Assembly: GCA_030263375.1 (NCBI GenBank)
Contig: SZOV01000014.1
Coordinates: forward strand, 1-48,556
Direction of reading: 5' to 3'
Length of the DNA: 48,556 bases
From: Deltaproteobacteria bacterium PRO3
GTDB taxonomy: Bacteria; UBA10199; DSSB01
Part shown: piece after piece, positions 6,233 through 22,098 of the stretch
Numbering within the stretch: the stretch's first letter is position 1
Layout: each line of letters opens with the position of its first letter
The notes under the pieces: generated by a model
What the model was told of the DNA's origin: nothing
Database searches by the model: none
Seen by the model: the letters and a program-made list of their open reading frames with translations, nothing else
Program-made: the position numbers and the translations under genes

Positions 6233-7327
6233 GTGACGACGAGTGCCGACAAGATGAATAAAGCCGAAACCAATTCCTCCGTCTGGATCGGCGGTCCCAA
6301 GACCGACCTGATCTTCTTCTGCTTCGGCTGGGTGCCGGTGTTTCTGGCCTTCGTCCTCGCCTTCGAGGCGGGGCGCAAGCAGGATCTGTGGCCCGCGTTG
6401 ATCGCCTTCGTCCTGATGATCAGCTTCATCCACCGCCATCTCACCTTTCCCTTGGTCTACGCCGACCCCGACCAGCTCGCCGCGCGCAAGAAGGCCTATG
6501 TCCTCTTTCCCTTCCTCTTCTTCCTGCTGACCCTGGCGGGCATCCTCTACGTCGAGCCGGGCCTGGGCCCCAAGGCGAGGCCGGTGCGGCCCTTGCTGGC
6601 GGTCTTGGTCTTCCTCTCGGTGGTCTGGAATATCTACCACACGCTGATGCAGAAGATGGGTATCCTGCGCGTCTACTCGCGCAAGGCGGGCTACGGCCGG
6701 CCCTGGATCGACAAGGCGATGATCTGGGTCTGGTTTCTGTTTCTGCTCCTGCAGCTGGCCTCGAGTCCCAAGGTGCAGCAGGAGGTGGTGCGCTTGAGCG
6801 CCGCCGGCAGGATGCTCAACCGCGTCTTCGAGCCGTTGCTGCCCGTCATGCCCTATTTGGCGGGCGCGGCCCTGGCCGCGGGCCTCGTCATCACCGGCTT
6901 TTACCTGAAGCAGGAATTCTCTCACCGCGGCCGCTTCCACTGGCCGAAGAACCTCTTCGTGCTGAGCGTCCTGCTGCTCTACGCCACGCTGGGCTACGAC
7001 TTCGTCGCGGGCTACGCGGCCTTCGGCTTCTCCCATGCCATCGAGTACATCGCCTTCGTCAACGTCTTCTCCCGGCGCAAGTACCTCGCGCGTCCCGCCG
7101 AGTCCTCGCCGCTGGCCGCCTGGATCCGCCGCCAGGGTTGGAGCTTCGGCGTCTTCGCGGCGGGGATGGTGACGATCTTCCTGCTTTGGCGCCATTGGTC
7201 CTGGACCACGCTGGGCTGGTACATCCTGGCGAGCAGCTTTCTGCACTTCCTCTATGACGGCTGGATTTGGAAGGTCCGCGACCCGAAGGTGGCCCAGCCG
7301 CTCGGCATCCGCCCGCAGGAGGCCTGA
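6233..7327 (+). CDS. Polytopic membrane protein of unknown function
   Basis: This protein has 364 residues and about nine hydrophobic helices. The GTG at 6233 follows TTAGGGA; an ATG six codons in is an alternative start. I do not recognise the family with certainty. Polar motifs embedded in or next to the helices are FIHRHLTFPLVYAD, WNIYHTLMQKMGILRVYSRK, FSHAIEYIAF and SFLHFLYDGWIWKVRDP, so several histidines lie at membrane borders, as in membrane-bound di-iron or haem enzymes. That comparison is only suggestive. It is 53 bp downstream of bioD on the same strand, but nothing ties it to biotin. Confidence 0.7.
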   Translation: MTTSADKMNKAETNSSVWIGGPKTDLIFFCFGWVPVFLAFVLAFEAGRKQDLWPALIAFVLMISFIHRHLTFPLVYADPDQLAARKKAYVLFPFLFFLLTLAGILYVEPGLGPKARPVRPLLAVLVFLSVVWNIYHTLMQKMGILRVYSRKAGYGRPWIDKAMIWVWFLFLLLQLASSPKVQQEVVRLSAAGRMLNRVFEPLLPVMPYLAGAALAAGLVITGFYLKQEFSHRGRFHWPKNLFVLSVLLLYATLGYDFVAGYAAFGFSHAIEYIAFVNVFSRRKYLARPAESSPLAAWIRRQGWSFGVFAAGMVTIFLLWRHWSWTTLGWYILASSFLHFLYDGWIWKVRDPKVAQPLGIRPQEA

Positions 7328-7401: not shown

Positions 7402-10122
7402 TTATTGCAGCGAAGCCAGGTCGGTGACCGCCGTGATCTCCTCTTCCTCCTCGGAAGTTTCCGGCGCTTGTCTGAAAAGGCCCAATTCGCGCTCGAAGAC
7501 CCGAGCGATGCCGTCGGAGCAGGAGAGGATCTTGTCGCCGCGGTCCACCGCGCTCTTCGGGCAGCGGACGCCGCGCAGCTGCTCGTAGACGAGGCGCTGG
7601 TCGACGCCGCTGCTCAGGCAGAGGCTGAGCAGGCGGGAAATGGTCTCGGTCTGCGCGCTGGCGCAGGTGCCGGTCGGGCCGAGCTGGGCGCGGACCTCGT
7701 AGGGGCCCCGCGCGTCGCGGGCGAAACTGACGTGCATCGGACCGCAGCCGGTGTGGATGAGGCGGTTGCTCGCCTGCAGGACCTCGGGCCGGGGGCGGGG
7801 CCGGATGCCGGGCGCGGCGCCGGACGCCGGGTCCGCGACGCCCAGGATGGAGGCGGCGAGGGAATGGGCGGCGGGTTCGGGGGAATCCGCAGTCTCGGAG
7901 ACCGAGGCCTCCGGTTCGAGGGCCGGCGAATTCTCGGCGGCGAGGCCTGCGGCGTCGGACGCCGCGGCCTCGTCGGAGACCGCTTCGTCCACCGCGGCGG
8001 CCAGGTCCTCGAGGCTCAAGACCAAGGAGGCCTCCGCCGCCTCGGCGGCGAGGGGGGCGGTCTCCGCCTCCGTCGCCTCGGGGATCGACGCTTCAGGGAG
8101 AAAATGGTGTTCTCCGGCGATGCGGACCTGGCTCAGGCCGTAGCCGCGGGCCGCTCGCAAGAGCTCGACCAGCGCCTCGTGGGTCAGGGCCTCGGGGAGC
8201 CCCAGCTCGCCCGTCACCGGCAGGTCGCAGTGTCGCTGGGCGGCGCCGAGGATCTTGAGGGGCCACTCCGGGGCGATCTCAGCGCGCTTGGCGAAAAGCC
8301 GGCGCAGCGGGCGGGGCGCGGACTCGGCCTCGCGGACGCTCTGCTTTTCGAGCACCTCCGCCGCGATGGTCTCGTTCCAGACCCGGCGGCGCTGCGCGAT
8401 CTGCTGCAAGAGAGCGAGCGGGCGCCCTTCCTCGACGACGGAATCGAGCGGCTCGAGTCCGGGGCTGACCTCGGCCAAGTCGGCCAGGCTGACCTCCGCG
8501 CGGATCGCCAGCAGGGCCTCGTGCCGCGGCGCGAGCTCGACGGGGCCTTCGGCGGGGGGCTCCCGTCGCTCGGTCAGGGCCGCGGCGGCGGCCTGCGCCT
8601 CTTGGCGCAGGAAGCGAAAGATCTTTTCGGCCAGGACCACGGCGTCCTCGCTATCGTAGGGGATGCCCAGCTTCAGCAGAAGCTCGGCAAAGCCCATCAC
8701 GCCCAGGCCCAGGCGCCGCGGCGTCTCGCGAGGGCTCTCATAGCCGGCGGCGGCGACCTCGAAGAGATTGTCGAGGAAGTGCACCGCGGTGCGCGTCATC
8801 CGGCGCAGCTTGGCCCAGTCGACGTCGTCGCCGGCCCCGACGATGGATAAATTAAGCGAGCCGAGACTGCCCCCCTCGTATCGGCTTAGCGCGGGAGTGC
8901 CGCCGGGATGGCCGGTCTCCAAATGGCTGAGGCGGGAGTTAGCGCGGGCGCCTGAGGCCTTATCGAAGCAGACCAGGCTCGGCTCGCTTTTCTTCCAGGT
9001 CACTAGCAAAACGTTTTCGAGGGCGGAGAGATCGGCTTCCTCCTCCGGGACCCGCCACTCGAAGCGAAACTTGGGATAGTATTTTCCCGAGAGGGCCAGC
9101 TCGGCCAAGGCCGCCGCGTCGGGATGGTCCGCGGCCAGGCGCAGGGCCACCGAGGCGGGCAGGGCCTGATCGTCGGGGAGCGCCATCAGGCAGCACTCGA
9201 CGCCCGAGAAGAAGCGCTCGAGGCTCGCGGTCGCGCTGGATGCGTAGGCCTTCGGCGCCTCGAGGGCGAAGACTACCTCGCCGCCCCTTCGCCACAACGC
9301 CGCGGCCTCGTCCAAGAGGGCGGGCAGCGCCTCGGCGTCCATCCGCCAGCGCAGGGCCGTCGGTCCCCAGCGGCGGGGCGGGGAGTCGGGGCCCTCGAGG
9401 AATTGGAAGAGGACGGGGAGCTGCGGGTAAAATTCTTGGTTGGCCATCGCGTTGAAGAACTCGACGGCCAGGATCTCCGGCTCGCAGGCCCCCGGCCCTT
9501 GGGCCTCGGCACCGGCGGCGAGCGTCGCGATCTCGTCGTAGAAGGCCTCGAGGCGCGCGGCGAGCTGCGGGTCGTCGAGGCCGAAGACCTCGCGCATCCG
9601 GCGCAGGGCGCGGGGCGAGACCTTGACGCCGGCCTTCGGCGGCAGGGGGCGCCCCGAGGGCGCCGCGCCGCGGGGCTGCAAAAATTTTTCGAGGGTGGGG
9701 AGTTGGGCGGCGGCGAGCTTGGCGGCCGGCGTTTCGGCGGAAGACTTCGCCTCGGGGGCGGGCTCCGGCGGGATCTCGGCGTCGGGATAGAGGGTGACGG
9801 TCGGCTCTTCCTCGGGCCGCGTTGCGACCTTGGAGCGGCGCCGGCGGATCTCGATCAGGCCGAGCTCCTCCAGTTTGAATTGCACGATCTCGCTGATGAG
9901 CTCGGGGCTTAAATGGGGGTTGGCGCGGCGCTTGAGTTCGGCCTCGACCTCTTCGCCGATCTGTTGGGCCAGCTCGGGGCGCAGCCGCTCGTTGCCCAGC
10001 GAGAGCAGCTCGCTGACCAAGCGTTGCCGGTCGAAGAGGGGGGCTTGGCTTTGGGGGGCGGGGCGAACCGTGGATAACTTCCTCCCCGAAAGGTCCTTTT
10101 TTACAGCCGAACTCGTTCGCAT
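7402..10122 (-). CDS. Class II ribonucleotide reductase-like protein with lost active site (RNR pseudoenzyme)
   Basis: This protein has 906 residues. Residues ~29-98 resemble an ATP-cone. The middle retains RNR landmarks: GGSLGSLNLS, RRLGLGVMGFAELLLKLGIP, SPGLEPL and IAPEWPLKILGAAQRHCD. The C-terminus (from ~790, HTGCGPMHVSF, through GVRCP to LSCSDGIARVFE) is the TSCPD-type domain of B12-dependent RNRs. The NPCGE motif has become HPGGT: the thiyl-radical Cys is Gly407 and the Glu is Thr409. The PTGTIS phosphate loop is AEVSLA (542-547), and the usual N-terminal LSAC cysteine is absent. An acidic Ala/Glu-rich linker precedes the C-terminal domain. The start at ATG 10122 was chosen for its GGAGGA site; a GTG at 10161 is also in frame. 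A nucleotide-sensing or RNR-partner role is inferred; the real reductase must lie elsewhere. Confidence 0.85.
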   Translation of the reverse strand: MRTSSAVKKDLSGRKLSTVRPAPQSQAPLFDRQRLVSELLSLGNERLRPELAQQIGEEVEAELKRRANPHLSPELISEIVQFKLEELGLIEIRRRRSKVATRPEEEPTVTLYPDAEIPPEPAPEAKSSAETPAAKLAAAQLPTLEKFLQPRGAAPSGRPLPPKAGVKVSPRALRRMREVFGLDDPQLAARLEAFYDEIATLAAGAEAQGPGACEPEILAVEFFNAMANQEFYPQLPVLFQFLEGPDSPPRRWGPTALRWRMDAEALPALLDEAAALWRRGGEVVFALEAPKAYASSATASLERFFSGVECCLMALPDDQALPASVALRLAADHPDAAALAELALSGKYYPKFRFEWRVPEEEADLSALENVLLVTWKKSEPSLVCFDKASGARANSRLSHLETGHPGGTPALSRYEGGSLGSLNLSIVGAGDDVDWAKLRRMTRTAVHFLDNLFEVAAAGYESPRETPRRLGLGVMGFAELLLKLGIPYDSEDAVVLAEKIFRFLRQEAQAAAAALTERREPPAEGPVELAPRHEALLAIRAEVSLADLAEVSPGLEPLDSVVEEGRPLALLQQIAQRRRVWNETIAAEVLEKQSVREAESAPRPLRRLFAKRAEIAPEWPLKILGAAQRHCDLPVTGELGLPEALTHEALVELLRAARGYGLSQVRIAGEHHFLPEASIPEATEAETAPLAAEAAEASLVLSLEDLAAAVDEAVSDEAAASDAAGLAAENSPALEPEASVSETADSPEPAAHSLAASILGVADPASGAAPGIRPRPRPEVLQASNRLIHTGCGPMHVSFARDARGPYEVRAQLGPTGTCASAQTETISRLLSLCLSSGVDQRLVYEQLRGVRCPKSAVDRGDKILSCSDGIARVFERELGLFRQAPETSEEEEEITAVTDLASLQ

Positions 10123-10141: not shown

Positions 10142-10173
10142 CTATCCACAGGTCCATTCACAAGTTATACACA
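10142..10173. promoter_or_regulatory. DnaA-box-like sites upstream of the RNR-like gene
   Basis: TTATACACA at 10165-10173 fits the DnaA consensus TTATNCACA at 9 of 9 positions. CTATCCACA at 10142-10150 fits TTATCCACA at 8 of 9. A third near-match (CGTGGATAA, 10069-10077, opposite orientation) lies inside the first codons. DnaA sites in front of a ribonucleotide reductase operon are known from E. coli nrdAB. One box overlaps the first NrdR-like site. Confidence 0.5.
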
Positions 10174-10216
10174 GTATATTGGGGCTGTGACTCCTAAACA
10201 CCACAAGATCTTGTGG
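10169..10216 (-). promoter_or_regulatory. Pair of NrdR-box-like operators
   Basis: ACACAGTATATTGGGG (10169-10184) matches the NrdR consensus ACACWATATATWGTGT at 13 of 16 positions. CCACAAGATCTTGTGG (10201-10216) matches at 12 of 16 and is a perfect dyad. Their centres are exactly 32 bp apart with a 16-bp gap, the spacing known for NrdR-controlled operons. A -10-like TATACT on the minus strand lies within the first box. This is independent evidence that the downstream pseudoenzyme belongs to the ribonucleotide reductase regulon. Confidence 0.7.
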
Positions 10217-10834
10217 TCTGTCAAACATTCGCGTCGGGGACCGGCGGGGGCAAAATTGAAAAGACTCGACATTTTGCGGGCTTGACCGGGAGAAAAAAAT
10301 TGCGGCGCTTAAGGCGCGGGCACGGGCTCGCGGCGGGTCGATTTTTAAGCCTTTGAAACTCCACAAAAAAATCCGAGGTGAATTTTTTAGGAGGGTCGCG
10401 GAGGCGCGAAAAAAAATCGGAGCCGAGGCCTTGTTTTCCGCCTTGCCGTCGCCACAGTGTAAAAAAAGAAAAAAACTCCCTGGGGTTTTTGCACTGAGAA
10501 GGGCGAGGCACGCGATCGCGGGGTTTTTGAGAGAGGTCTCGCGAGGGAAGGGAGCGCCTTTCCTCGTGAGATTGCGAGCGCCGTCGCGAAAGAAAAATCA
10601 TCACACGGCGCGTCAAGCGTCTTGACATTTTCGCTTGAAAGATCAAAGGCTTTGCTACGGGATTTTTCTTGCGATTTTTTTTTTGAATCGAGATAGAATC
10701 TTTTGGCGCCTTGGGCGTTAAGCGGAAAAGGCCCCGGACCTGGGCCTTTCCAAATCACAATCGAATTTTTTCTGCGCCGACGCGACGGATGTCGCGCGAA
10801 GGGCGCGGGTATTGTTCCGGAAGAAAGGCGCGCG
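10217..10834. other. 618-bp gene-poor region with A/T tracts
   Basis: No convincing gene is seen here; the reading frames present lack plausible starts or similarity. The stretch alternates GC-rich sequence with A- and T-runs of 5-9 bases. It holds an inverted repeat TCAAGCG/CGCTTGA (10613-10619, 10632-10638) enclosing TTGACA (10622-10627), and TAGAAT at 10694-10699 as a possible -10 for the downstream lipoprotein gene. A small RNA cannot be excluded. Confidence 0.4.
10724..10751 (+). terminator. Hairpin in the leader of the mltD-like gene
   Basis: GGAAAAGGCCC (10724-10734) and GGGCCTTTCC (10742-10751) pair around a seven-base loop, with a run of six T about 16 bases further on. If transcription starts at the TAGAAT upstream, this would be an attenuator-like structure in the 5' leader. 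It could equally end a short upstream transcript. Confidence 0.4.

Positions 10835-13330: not shown

Positions 13331-13334
<4 letters not shown>
13320..13334. repeat. Half copy of the bioF palindromic repeat
   Basis: AAGGTTCGCCCCTAC here differs at one position from the right arm end AAGGTTCGTCCCTAC at 4096-4110. It lies between two convergent genes and overlaps the TAG stop of the kinase/sigma-54 activator gene (13333-13331). No complementary arm is nearby, so it appears to be a decayed or solo half element. Confidence 0.6.
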
Positions 13335-18298
<4,964 letters not shown>

Positions 18299-18428
18299 TC
18301 CGCAACTCCGGGCCCCGGCGGGGCGATAATATATTGGAAGAAATCTTTTTCTTACGGGGGCCGTCGGGCACACGGCCTTAAATGTAATGAAAAATCAGGG
18401 GGTTGTTAATCCTACCCGCACCGTCATT

Positions 18429-18606: not shown

Positions 18607-20367
18607 ATGAAGCGGAACATGTGGCACATCTTGGGGTTCTTTCTGGCCGCCCTGCTTTGGGGCTGTGGCGGTGCGGGCGGTCCTGCCGCCGGCGCCGGCG
18701 GCGCCTTGGACGGCGGCGGGAATTTCGCCGCGGGGCCGGTGTCCCTGCCGGCGCCCAGCATCGTGGCGCCCGACGCGCCTGTCACCTGGACCAGCATCTC
18801 CTGCACCAACACCCCCGGCCCCAACTTCGAGTGCCGCGGGACCTCTCAGTCGGTCCTTCCCAACACCGAGATTCAATTTCGCATCTTCGCCCCCGCTGCG
18901 GCGGTGCCCCGCGACACCTTCACTACCGTCGCCGACGCCCAAGGCGTGTGGTCGGTGACCCGCGCCGGCGAGGCGGGCGAGTCCGTCGAGATCTGCCCCA
19001 AGGAAAACGGCGTCTGCGGCTCCTTCCGTCTCTACAAGCTGCCGCCGGAGGGTGGCGTGGTGGACGGCAATTCCGGGACGATGAAGAACTTAGTGATCGA
19101 CCCGCAGGGTGACAGTTGGCACTCGCGGCTCATGCCGAAGAGTTTTAGGTTGGGTCGTCTCGTCGCCTCCTGGTTCGTGCCGGAGGCGCGGGCCCAAGAG
19201 GCGCTGCGTCCCTACACCCCCATCTTTTGCGGGGACCTGACGTCTTTCGAGATCCTGGAGGCCGTCGGCACGGCTCCTGTCCCGAAGTGCGACCTGTTCC
19301 GGGCCCAACGCGGCGGCGGTCCTTCGATACGCGCCGTTACCTTCGACAATTGCCAGCAGAGCGACATCCGCTCGGTGGTCAGCCTGCGCCACCCGCGCAC
19401 CGGCCAGCCGGTCTTGCTGGTTGCGGTGAAGAACCGCGTCCACGTCGTGGAGACGCAGCCCTCGCCGCGCATCGTGTGGGCCTATAGCTTCCCGGGCGAC
19501 GTCGTTTCTATCTTGGATCAGGGAGATCGATTCGTCGCCGTCGTCAATGCCCCCACCGGCGTTGCGCACAATCTTTACTATGTTGATCTGAGGCAGAAGG
19601 CGCCGGAAGGCACGGGCTGCTACCCCGCCCTCGATTGGTTGAAGGGGACGGAGAACGTCACCTCGTCAGACAGCTTAAGCGAAACCTTCACGATGGTGGT
19701 CTACAAGCAGCCGGGCGTCTACCAGGTGATGCTGGGCCGGCACGTCCCGGGCAGCACGGCCTTTCGTAATCAGCCCTGGCCGCTGCTGCCGCCTTCCAAC
19801 ACGCCACTGGAGGCCCGAATCCTCAAGGTCGAGCAGAACTGGGTCTGGGTCGCGGTCCTGAACGCCGCGCAGAAGAACATCAAGATCGTGAAGCACTTCA
19901 TGCCCGACGCCGACGTCCTCGTCCTGGGCGGCGAGCCGGATCCAGTGCAGGAGATCGCCCTCGAGGGACTGTCGCTGGGAACCGGCAACCTGAGTGTCTT
20001 TCGCCCGCACCTCTTCAACGTCAACCGCGAGACCCGCGAGCTGGTCTTCGTCGACGTGTCGGAGCAGGGCTCGAAGTTCGTGGCGATCCCCTACGCCTGG
20101 GTGGACGGCAACGTCGGCCCCGTCCGCACGGCGAGCGTCACCGACTTGGGCGGCGCCAGCCCCGCCTCGTTGCGCCGGGACACCAGCGAGGCCGGCGCCG
20201 GCTGGGCCTACAACGACGGCACTTGGCAGATCCGCCGCGTACGCACGCAGCGCGAAAATTTGCAGATTCAGCTGCCCGCGCATCTTCTGACGGAGGGTGT
20301 GCCGGTACAATTCTACCTCCGGGACGGCGCCGCTCCGGCCCCTGCGACGGAAGAGGATGAGGAATAA
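18607..20367 (+). CDS. Lipoprotein of unknown function, first of a tandem paralogous pair
   Basis: This protein has 586 residues. The signal peptide MKRNMWHILGFFLAALLWGC ends in a lipobox with Cys20, followed by a Gly/Ala-rich spacer. The segment GNFAAGPVSLPAPSI reappears almost unchanged in the next gene, as do the following cysteine-containing domain (CTNTPGPNFECRG) and the pattern EGGVVDGNSGTMKNL. The remainder is beta-rich without a family I recognise. It probably sits in the outer membrane or periplasm. It is three bases upstream of its paralogue and divergent from the kinase/sigma-54 activator, which might regulate it. Confidence 0.8.
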   Translation: MKRNMWHILGFFLAALLWGCGGAGGPAAGAGGALDGGGNFAAGPVSLPAPSIVAPDAPVTWTSISCTNTPGPNFECRGTSQSVLPNTEIQFRIFAPAAAVPRDTFTTVADAQGVWSVTRAGEAGESVEICPKENGVCGSFRLYKLPPEGGVVDGNSGTMKNLVIDPQGDSWHSRLMPKSFRLGRLVASWFVPEARAQEALRPYTPIFCGDLTSFEILEAVGTAPVPKCDLFRAQRGGGPSIRAVTFDNCQQSDIRSVVSLRHPRTGQPVLLVAVKNRVHVVETQPSPRIVWAYSFPGDVVSILDQGDRFVAVVNAPTGVAHNLYYVDLRQKAPEGTGCYPALDWLKGTENVTSSDSLSETFTMVVYKQPGVYQVMLGRHVPGSTAFRNQPWPLLPPSNTPLEARILKVEQNWVWVAVLNAAQKNIKIVKHFMPDADVLVLGGEPDPVQEIALEGLSLGTGNLSVFRPHLFNVNRETRELVFVDVSEQGSKFVAIPYAWVDGNVGPVRTASVTDLGGASPASLRRDTSEAGAGWAYNDGTWQIRRVRTQRENLQIQLPAHLLTEGVPVQFYLRDGAAPAPATEEDEE

Positions 20368-20370
20368 GCG

Positions 20371-22098
20371 ATGAAATTTCCCCGCATCCATGGCGTCGCC
20401 GCGTTCTGCGGCGCCCTGATCCTGGCCGCCCTGCTTGCCTGCAGCGGCGGCGCGGGCCCCGGCGCCGAGGGAATGGCCGGCGGTCCGATGGACGGGAGCG
20501 GCAACTACGCCGCGGGCCCGATGTCCTTGCCCGCGCCCAGCATCATCAACAAAGGCCTGGTGAGCTGCGAAAACGTCCCCGGTCCGACGGTGCAGTGCCG
20601 CGGCACCGCGGGCGCGGTGCCGGCCAACGCGCGCGTCAAGCTGACCGTCTACGGCCGCCACATCGCGGCGGCCCCGCACTGGAGCGATTGGCTGGTGCCG
20701 AGCGCGCAGGCCGTTCCCGGCAACACCTCCATTTGCAACGCCAACGGGGCGGGCGCCTTCGGTCTGGCGGGCGAGTGCTCGGTGATCGCCGCCACCGGCG
20801 AGAAGATCGGTATCTGCGTCGCGAGCGGCGACGCCTGCGTCAGCGCCGAACTGCTGTTGACCGTCCCCGTCGAGGGCGGCGTCGTCAGCGGCGCCACCGC
20901 CACCATCAAAAGCATGTCGACGACGAGCGACGGCTACATCATCTTCGGACGCCGCGCCGAGCCGCGCAAGGAATCCGCATTTGCCTTCCGTTGGACCGAC
21001 CTGTTTTTCGGCACCGCCCGCGCCCAAGAAGTCGAGGGGGCGCCGAAGTTGACCCTGCCGCCGGCCGTCGCGGCGAGCTGTCCCGGAAATCCGAACGCGC
21101 AGGTGGATCTTGCGGAGACCTACAAGGCCCCCGAAGGGCAATGGCTGACGATCAAGGCGCAAAAGGGCGGTGCGGTGCAGGAGTTGTTCCAACTTCCCGG
21201 GACCCAGGACGACTTGCAGGCGATCAATGCCGACAAGATCGGCAACATTACTTATATCTCGGTGGCGATGAAGAATACTTTGGTGATTGTGCACCGTGAT
21301 TCGAAGCGGCCAATGACGCAGATCGTGTTTCCCGCCTCGATCAAGTCGATGCGCGGCGGCTCCACGATGGAAGTTTTTCTGGAGGTGCCGAAGGGTGAGC
21401 CGTCTTTATACGAGGTCAAGGCGGACAGCTTCGAGACCCAATGCGTCGATACCGTCGAGTCCAATTCCCTGACGCGCCCCATCTCCTTTTCCCGCTCCAT
21501 CGGGCAATACCGTCCGCCCGGCGAGGGCTTCCGGGTGCCGCAGCCCTTCGGTGTCTCCGGCGGGGTGGGCGAGAACGAGCCGACGGCGGATTTTCAGTTG
21601 GTGTATTCTCAAGAGGGGCAGGGCGATATCCCCGCCTTCGAAGGCGTGATCCACCGCCAGGCGACGCCCCTGAGGGATTTTTATATCCTGGCCGTGACGC
21701 AGGAGCGCGCGCAGATGGCGGTCTTGGATCCCGCCGCCAACCGTATCTTGTTCTTCAGCCGCGACTTGGTCTCGGGCGAGAACCACATGACGCCCTTGTC
21801 GTTGGAAGGGATCACCGTCAGTCCGGTCGCGATGAAGTATGTCAATCAGGACAGGTATCCCTATTTCTTCGTGGTGCTGGACTCCAACGAGCGCGGCGCC
21901 AAGGCCGTGATGATCCCGTTGAACCGCAGGGCCGAGGGCGGCGAGCTGCAGCCTTATCTGGCGGGCGTCCGCTCGGTCGACTTGGGGCCCATCGTCGCCG
22001 ACACGCTCGAGCTCAACCAGATGGCCTTTTGGGAGTGGGCCACCTTCGACCGCGTCGGCGGGCAGGTGAAGACCTTCGTCCTGGGTCCCCGCGATTGA
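20371..22098 (+). CDS. Lipoprotein of unknown function, second of the tandem pair
   Basis: This protein has 575 residues. The signal peptide MKFPRIHGVAAFCGALILAALLAC gives lipidated Cys24. GNYAAGPMSLPAPSI, CENVPGPTVQCRG and EGGVVSGATATIKSM match the upstream gene in the same order, so the two arose by tandem duplication and have since diverged strongly in their C-terminal halves. Only three bases separate it from the upstream gene, so they form an operon. smpB follows 43 bp later and may be partly transcribed from here. No enzymatic motif is visible. Confidence 0.8.
   Translation: MKFPRIHGVAAFCGALILAALLACSGGAGPGAEGMAGGPMDGSGNYAAGPMSLPAPSIINKGLVSCENVPGPTVQCRGTAGAVPANARVKLTVYGRHIAAAPHWSDWLVPSAQAVPGNTSICNANGAGAFGLAGECSVIAATGEKIGICVASGDACVSAELLLTVPVEGGVVSGATATIKSMSTTSDGYIIFGRRAEPRKESAFAFRWTDLFFGTARAQEVEGAPKLTLPPAVAASCPGNPNAQVDLAETYKAPEGQWLTIKAQKGGAVQELFQLPGTQDDLQAINADKIGNITYISVAMKNTLVIVHRDSKRPMTQIVFPASIKSMRGGSTMEVFLEVPKGEPSLYEVKADSFETQCVDTVESNSLTRPISFSRSIGQYRPPGEGFRVPQPFGVSGGVGENEPTADFQLVYSQEGQGDIPAFEGVIHRQATPLRDFYILAVTQERAQMAVLDPAANRILFFSRDLVSGENHMTPLSLEGITVSPVAMKYVNQDRYPYFFVVLDSNERGAKAVMIPLNRRAEGGELQPYLAGVRSVDLGPIVADTLELNQMAFWEWATFDRVGGQVKTFVLGPRD

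Follow-up and report, generated by a model that had tools for sequence, protein, structure and literature searches.

The window analysed here, 48,556 nucleotides that make up contig C14 of the 3.55-Mb genome assembly of Deltaproteobacteria bacterium PRO3, a member of a little-known phylum (G000, the host genome), carries on its minus strand, from 10122 to 7402, an open reading frame that is, judged by its sequence, a homologue of class II ribonucleotide reductase (RNR; NrdJ) with an erased active site. RNR is essential and under tight control. Our judgement is evenly balanced on whether this protein is a pseudoenzyme, an NrdJ paralogue no longer capable of ribonucleotide reduction but retained to serve dNTP supply without catalysis; on this reading it probably assists or regulates the genuine class II reductases as a partner.

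The gene starts with an ATG at 10122, preceded by a Shine-Dalgarno-like GGAGG (10135-10131), and encodes 906 amino acids. An upstream extension of the frame, VDSSMEERG, was rejected as coding, since its conservation is explained by a DnaA-like box and the Shine-Dalgarno sequence. Along the chain come cone-like helices (residues 28-92), an alpha domain (165-245), the barrel (246-670), a low-complexity linker (671-782), a TSCPD/IscU-like domain (783-880, encoded at 7483..7776 on the minus strand) and an acidic tail (881-906). The match to the B12-dependent RNR family PRK08665 (E=2.4e-71) is far above chance, as expected from the original prediction of a full-length class II homologue, and the RNR barrel (PF02867, E=1.6e-20) and TSCPD (PF12637, E=3.4e-12, 46.9 bits for a cut-off of 22.8) both pass their Pfam cut-offs; the profile built from the erased family in turn recovers T. 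maritima NrdJ (1e-81). On TIGR02504 the erased protein reaches 111 bits for a cut-off of 400, the comparison proteins scoring 683 (the host's short NrdJ), 579 (its canonical NrdJ) and 696 (the relative in G039). The N-terminus, also described beforehand as resembling an ATP cone, is helical (32-41, 49-65 and 73-86 in the structure model) with no strand predicted before residue 32, and its likeness to a cone is weak: PF03477 gives 14.7 bits against a cut-off of 25.8, and an E-value of 0.1 or less in five of 12 members (best 0.0026). Aligned by hhalign with the host's own NrdR, this domain yields an E-value of 0.034 but a probability of 1.5%, and a PDB profile search with the domain alone returned chance matches only, with no PDB cone among them. 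The ATP cones occasionally found in class II RNRs have no known role (PMC9669993).

The erasure was read from an alignment with 44 intact viral NrdJs, in which the protein matches 44 of the 122 columns that are at least 90% conserved among them. The active-site loop NPCGE, with its radical Cys, has become HPGGT at residues 405-409 (8896..8910, minus strand), so that this Cys, the Asn and the Glu are all replaced (C407->G, N405->H, E409->T). Both active-site redox cysteines are replaced as well (C254->P, C418->G). The substrate-phosphate loop PTGTIS reads AEVSLA at 542-547, with AEV for PTG at 542-544 (8491..8499, minus strand); the specificity-site loop QGGxRRGAN and the SKTxN and GxTxYR motifs are likewise replaced. 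What is left is LGSLNLS at 420, SPGLEPL at 553 and the structural core around 420-425, 449-451 and 469-489. The original prediction, made by eye, thus placed the two altered loops correctly, numbered Gly407 and Thr409 as we do and was right that the N-terminal redox Cys is gone; its statement that the TSCPD C-terminus keeps cysteines stands (Cys 793, 820, 854 and 868), with the qualification that the C-terminal six-Cys zinc finger/redox array of active relatives is lost, the six columns conserved in the viral set being gaps here. Erasure is also seen in G001, G002 and G004, HPGGT itself being conserved in the first two. With catalytic, redox, phosphate and specificity-site residues lost, the protein is very probably unable to reduce ribonucleotides, in line with the non-catalytic protein originally proposed.

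The fold, by contrast with these residues, is predicted to be retained in the alpha domain and barrel. The AlphaFold2 model was computed from an alignment deepened with intact, active NrdJs, which biases it towards the RNR fold; its mean pLDDT is 69.8, with disordered linkers and values that exceed 90 over large parts of 420-650 and within the TSCPD domain. Foldseek pairs it with T. maritima NrdJ (1xjf, E 1.6e-25), and VIA Z-scores are 34.7 to 6dqw and 32.1 to 1xjf, and 31-35 over some 470-490 residues to class II and class Id RNR alpha subunits.

A hint at the role comes from the promoter. Two NrdR-box-like palindromes, CCACAAGATCTTGTGG (10201..10216, minus strand) and CCCCAATATACTGTGT (10169..10184, minus strand), are separated by a 16-bp spacer, and TTGACA, the likely -35 element (10219..10224, minus strand), lies just upstream of the first. 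They are accompanied by DnaA-box-like 9-mers on the same strand, TGTGTATAA (10165..10173) and TGTGGATAG (10142..10150, a perfect TGTGGATAA in G003), which have one mismatch each here, as do most of them elsewhere, and weigh less as evidence than the NrdR boxes. The order TTGACA-GA-palindrome-16 bp-palindrome, the 32-bp distance from box start to box start and DnaA-box-like 9-mers, TGTGTATAA included, recur in G000, G001, G003 and G004, TTGACA being invariant in the four. This predicted tandem NrdR-box pair with DnaA-box-like 9-mers at an erased RNR gene is new. Boxes of this class also precede the canonical nrdJ genes of the phylum, often as two copies about 32 bp from each other of which one is weaker, and the host's own real nrdJ has a comparable pair; in most bacteria NrdR boxes have a 15-16-bp spacer and are both required (PMC12051234). 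The palindrome core, CACWANATNTWGTG, has its sole match in the host genome at box 1, and a single occurrence in the window, where none is expected by chance; across eight genomes there are 12, ten of which precede RNR-family genes (four the erased gene, six canonical nrdJ, G007 counting twice), and the reversed pattern used as a control has zero matches. The two sites away from RNR genes are G003:C55:10823 (L102:1501) and G010:C10:66234 (L105:1501), the latter within a long ORF. Clear in family f1, the boxes of the erased gene are weaker in G010, and within f1 they place the gene very probably in the NrdR regulon. NrdR senses ATP/dATP, and the host genome has its gene at G000:C24:19064, a 172-codon ORF with a CxxC N-terminus and an ATP cone scoring 87.5 bits.

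That the promoter still bears the sites of the real reductases' repressor suggests a non-catalytic helper in DNA-precursor supply; counting against this are the confinement of clear boxes to f1, the looser constraint on the gene and, in G003, the loss of the TSCPD cysteines, and the promoter could be an inheritance from the catalytic ancestor. Such a leftover is part of an alternative that we hold to be unlikely, while taking it seriously: a non-catalytic protein that has moved outside dNTP metabolism, its barrel being a scaffold and its TSCPD domain, N-terminal helices and acidic tail serving an unrelated role. It would account for the loss of nucleotide and substrate sites, for the long low-complexity linker and the acidic tail, and for the fact that no clear NrdR pair was found upstream of the more distant relatives in G007, G014, G019, G024 and G029. 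It is also in keeping with terminal domains that are more conserved than most of the barrel: the TSCPD domain, best conserved of all among the closest orthologues, is identical at 82 of 98 residues to that of G001 and at 72 of 98 to that of G004, and the N-terminal domain at 49 and 47 of 65, respectively, the barrel at 420-525 giving 64/100 and 68/95 and its remainder less. Yet the promoter block is the best-conserved stretch of a diverged upstream DNA, between proteins that are about 34-62% identical, which is unexpected of a leftover.

For a pseudoenzyme retained in dNTP supply, a mechanism may be sketched as follows. NrdR, perhaps with DnaA, would turn on the erased gene together with nrdJ; its product would bind working NrdJ as a hetero-oligomer, in contact through the RNR dimer surface and the conserved TSCPD (IscU-like) and N-terminal domains, and would tune the oligomeric state or the activity of NrdJ. 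The NrdR-box pair lends indirect support to the partner of the true reductase that was originally proposed. C-terminal CRD/IscU-like domains have been linked to class II oligomerisation (PMC5704485, PMC9669993). In this full form, that of a dedicated regulatory subunit without catalysis, transcribed with the real reductase under NrdR (perhaps DnaA) and hetero-oligomerising, hence a branch of dNTP homeostasis run by a pseudo-RNR, of a kind not known from bacteria, the proposal is put forward only tentatively. The other role once suggested, a dNTP sensor, is weakened and now disfavoured, because the known nucleotide sites (QGGxRRGAN and PTG loops) have been erased and the ATP cone falls short of its cut-off, no nucleotide-binding beta cap being predicted; with its loop lost, the class II specificity site is likewise disfavoured as a place for effector sensing.

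A true reductase was to be sought elsewhere in the genome, and there are two, the canonical NrdJ and a short NrdJ on contig C8, both with intact motifs; no class I or III RNR was found in the host genome. In f1 the short NrdJ is devoid of a TSCPD domain and occurs together with the erased gene in G000, G002, G003 and G004, and a split NrdJa/NrdJb is already known (PMC9669993), all of which would suit an erased protein that is an accessory subunit giving its TSCPD domain in trans to the short enzyme, as NrdJb does to NrdJa. We consider this improbable: the zinc finger and terminal Cys pair are gone from the erased protein, its TSCPD cysteines are lost in the G003 orthologue, G010, G014, G024 and G029 have the erased gene without an intact short NrdJ, and no NrdR box was found at the short nrdJ promoter. 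In G007 a short C8-type NrdJ is itself erased (G007:C33:1665-3308, minus strand; L043:1659-3332), with SPYGE for NPCGE and its redox Cys lost; it groups with intact C8-type NrdJs, which indicates an independent erasure.

Selection still acts on the erased gene. Its dN/dS against G002 is 0.214 (NG86; 95% CI 0.131-0.315), a purifying value that is nevertheless some fivefold higher than the 0.040 of the intact short NrdJ compared between these two genomes, which denotes looser constraint. The f1 orthologues are open frames of 34-93% identity, single in G000, G003 and G004 and in contig fragments in G001 and G002, where contig ends split the gene (the sample consists of MAGs); single frames exist beyond f1 in f2 (G007), f5 (G010), f9 (G014), f15 (G024) and f18 (G029). 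High GC might let the open frame of a slowly decaying pseudogene persist, as GC3 is 0.88 and each of the other five frames has just 6-20 stops, and the relative in G034 is frameshifted and that in G045 looks broken. With an upper confidence limit near 0.32, full-length frames in G003, G004, G007, G010, G014, G024 and G029, no frameshift in close relatives and a conserved promoter and start region, we nonetheless reject a pseudogene, giving decay very little credence; the protein is maintained, and the expectation that selection keeps it is upheld by these data. Scarcely credible, finally, is the idea that the protein is a reductase whose active site has moved or changed: the barrel fold is retained by prediction, but phosphate, specificity and redox sites are gone and none of the barrel cysteines (213, 310, 311, 385, 632) recurs in all of G001, G004 and G003, so that none took over the catalytic role. 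The two findings that the original prediction named as refuting it, an active site supplied from other parts of the chain and frameshifts in relatives, were thus both absent from the gene's own orthologues.

The wider record was searched in 46 genomes, the same set for the class as for the phylum. The erased-family profile matches every phylum genome with a completeness of 90% or more and a contamination of 5% or less, and in nearly all of these the matches include an NrdJ-type frame of about 950-1700 aa, taken as canonical nrdJ (an identity verified by motif and family for G000). Within f1, G005 and G006 are without the erased gene but merely 73% and 82% complete. The homologue of G024 retains the loop Cys (HPCHAQ), that of G019 (f13) is intermediate, its cysteines kept and DPCSGQ standing for NPCGEQ, and that of G039 (f13) has an intact active site. 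When intact NrdJs are taken as the outgroup, the tree has G034/G039 branching off first, then G019, then the erased proteins, its deep nodes being uncertain owing to long branches. The RNR-family gene adjoins mutY in G014, G024, G029, G034 and G039; as erased genes and an intact relative both sit beside mutY, erasure in some lineages occurred at the position of a still-intact relative. In G000, G001, G004, G007 and G010 the erased gene adjoins an mltD-like gene. In G034 the NrdJ (contig C40; L083:4781-6890) has NPCGE/PTGTIS intact and an N-terminus resembling a cone; it falls into two frames at a point where the specificity-site loop is some 14 residues short, which may be recent decay or an assembly error. 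More eroded RNR-like frames are found in f21, one of 502 aa in G044 (L086:3161-4666) and two overlapping ones in G045 (L087:5851-7172). Among the phage-record matches listed for the erased protein, only annotated ordinary RNRs appear.

Other genes of the window deserve a word. A 1680-aa protein (13331-18373, minus strand) combines a Ser/Thr kinase domain, TPR repeats, GAF and a sigma-54 activator domain, and G004 and G007 each have a homologue close to their erased gene. On the plus strand, two neighbouring ORFs of 586 and 575 aa (18607-22098) have no Pfam match, and a membrane-protein-like ORF of 364 aa (6233-7327), adjoining bio genes, is homologous to ORFs of G003 and G004, with no Pfam family above cut-off.

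Surveys of RNRs may discard homologues without catalytic residues as likely non-functional (PMC6370689), so that such proteins are easily missed; in the open-licence literature we found no inactive RNR large subunit from bacteria, the reported cases being viral. The nearest known system is NrdJ of the PRK08665/TIGR02504 type (T. maritima, 1XJE), with homologous alpha domain and barrel, a homologous TSCPD domain in those members that bear one, a similar predicted fold (Z of about 32) and an NrdR-type promoter; the erased protein differs in lacking the catalytic, redox, phosphate and specificity-loop residues and the C-terminal zinc finger, and in falling far below the TIGR02504 cut-off. The split NrdJa/NrdJb resembles it in that a separate TSCPD/IscU-like polypeptide could serve a reductase in trans (PMC9669993), whereas descriptions of NrdJb give it a zinc finger and an IscU-like domain, and the erased protein has an entire barrel, itself erased, and lacks the zinc finger. 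The inactive R1 of beta-herpesviruses, such as M45 of murine cytomegalovirus, is likewise the large subunit of an RNR, no longer catalytic but retained in a non-catalytic role (PMC12282084); unlike the bacterial class II paralogue it is viral, derived from class I, directed at host signalling proteins and not controlled by NrdR. If our reading is true, a vertically kept, NrdR-linked pseudo-RNR would mean that bacteria, too, recruit dead RNRs as these viruses do, and could reveal a mode of class II RNR regulation. The relatives, grading from an intact G039 via a partly erased G019 into the erased proteins, form a natural record of the birth of a pseudoenzyme.
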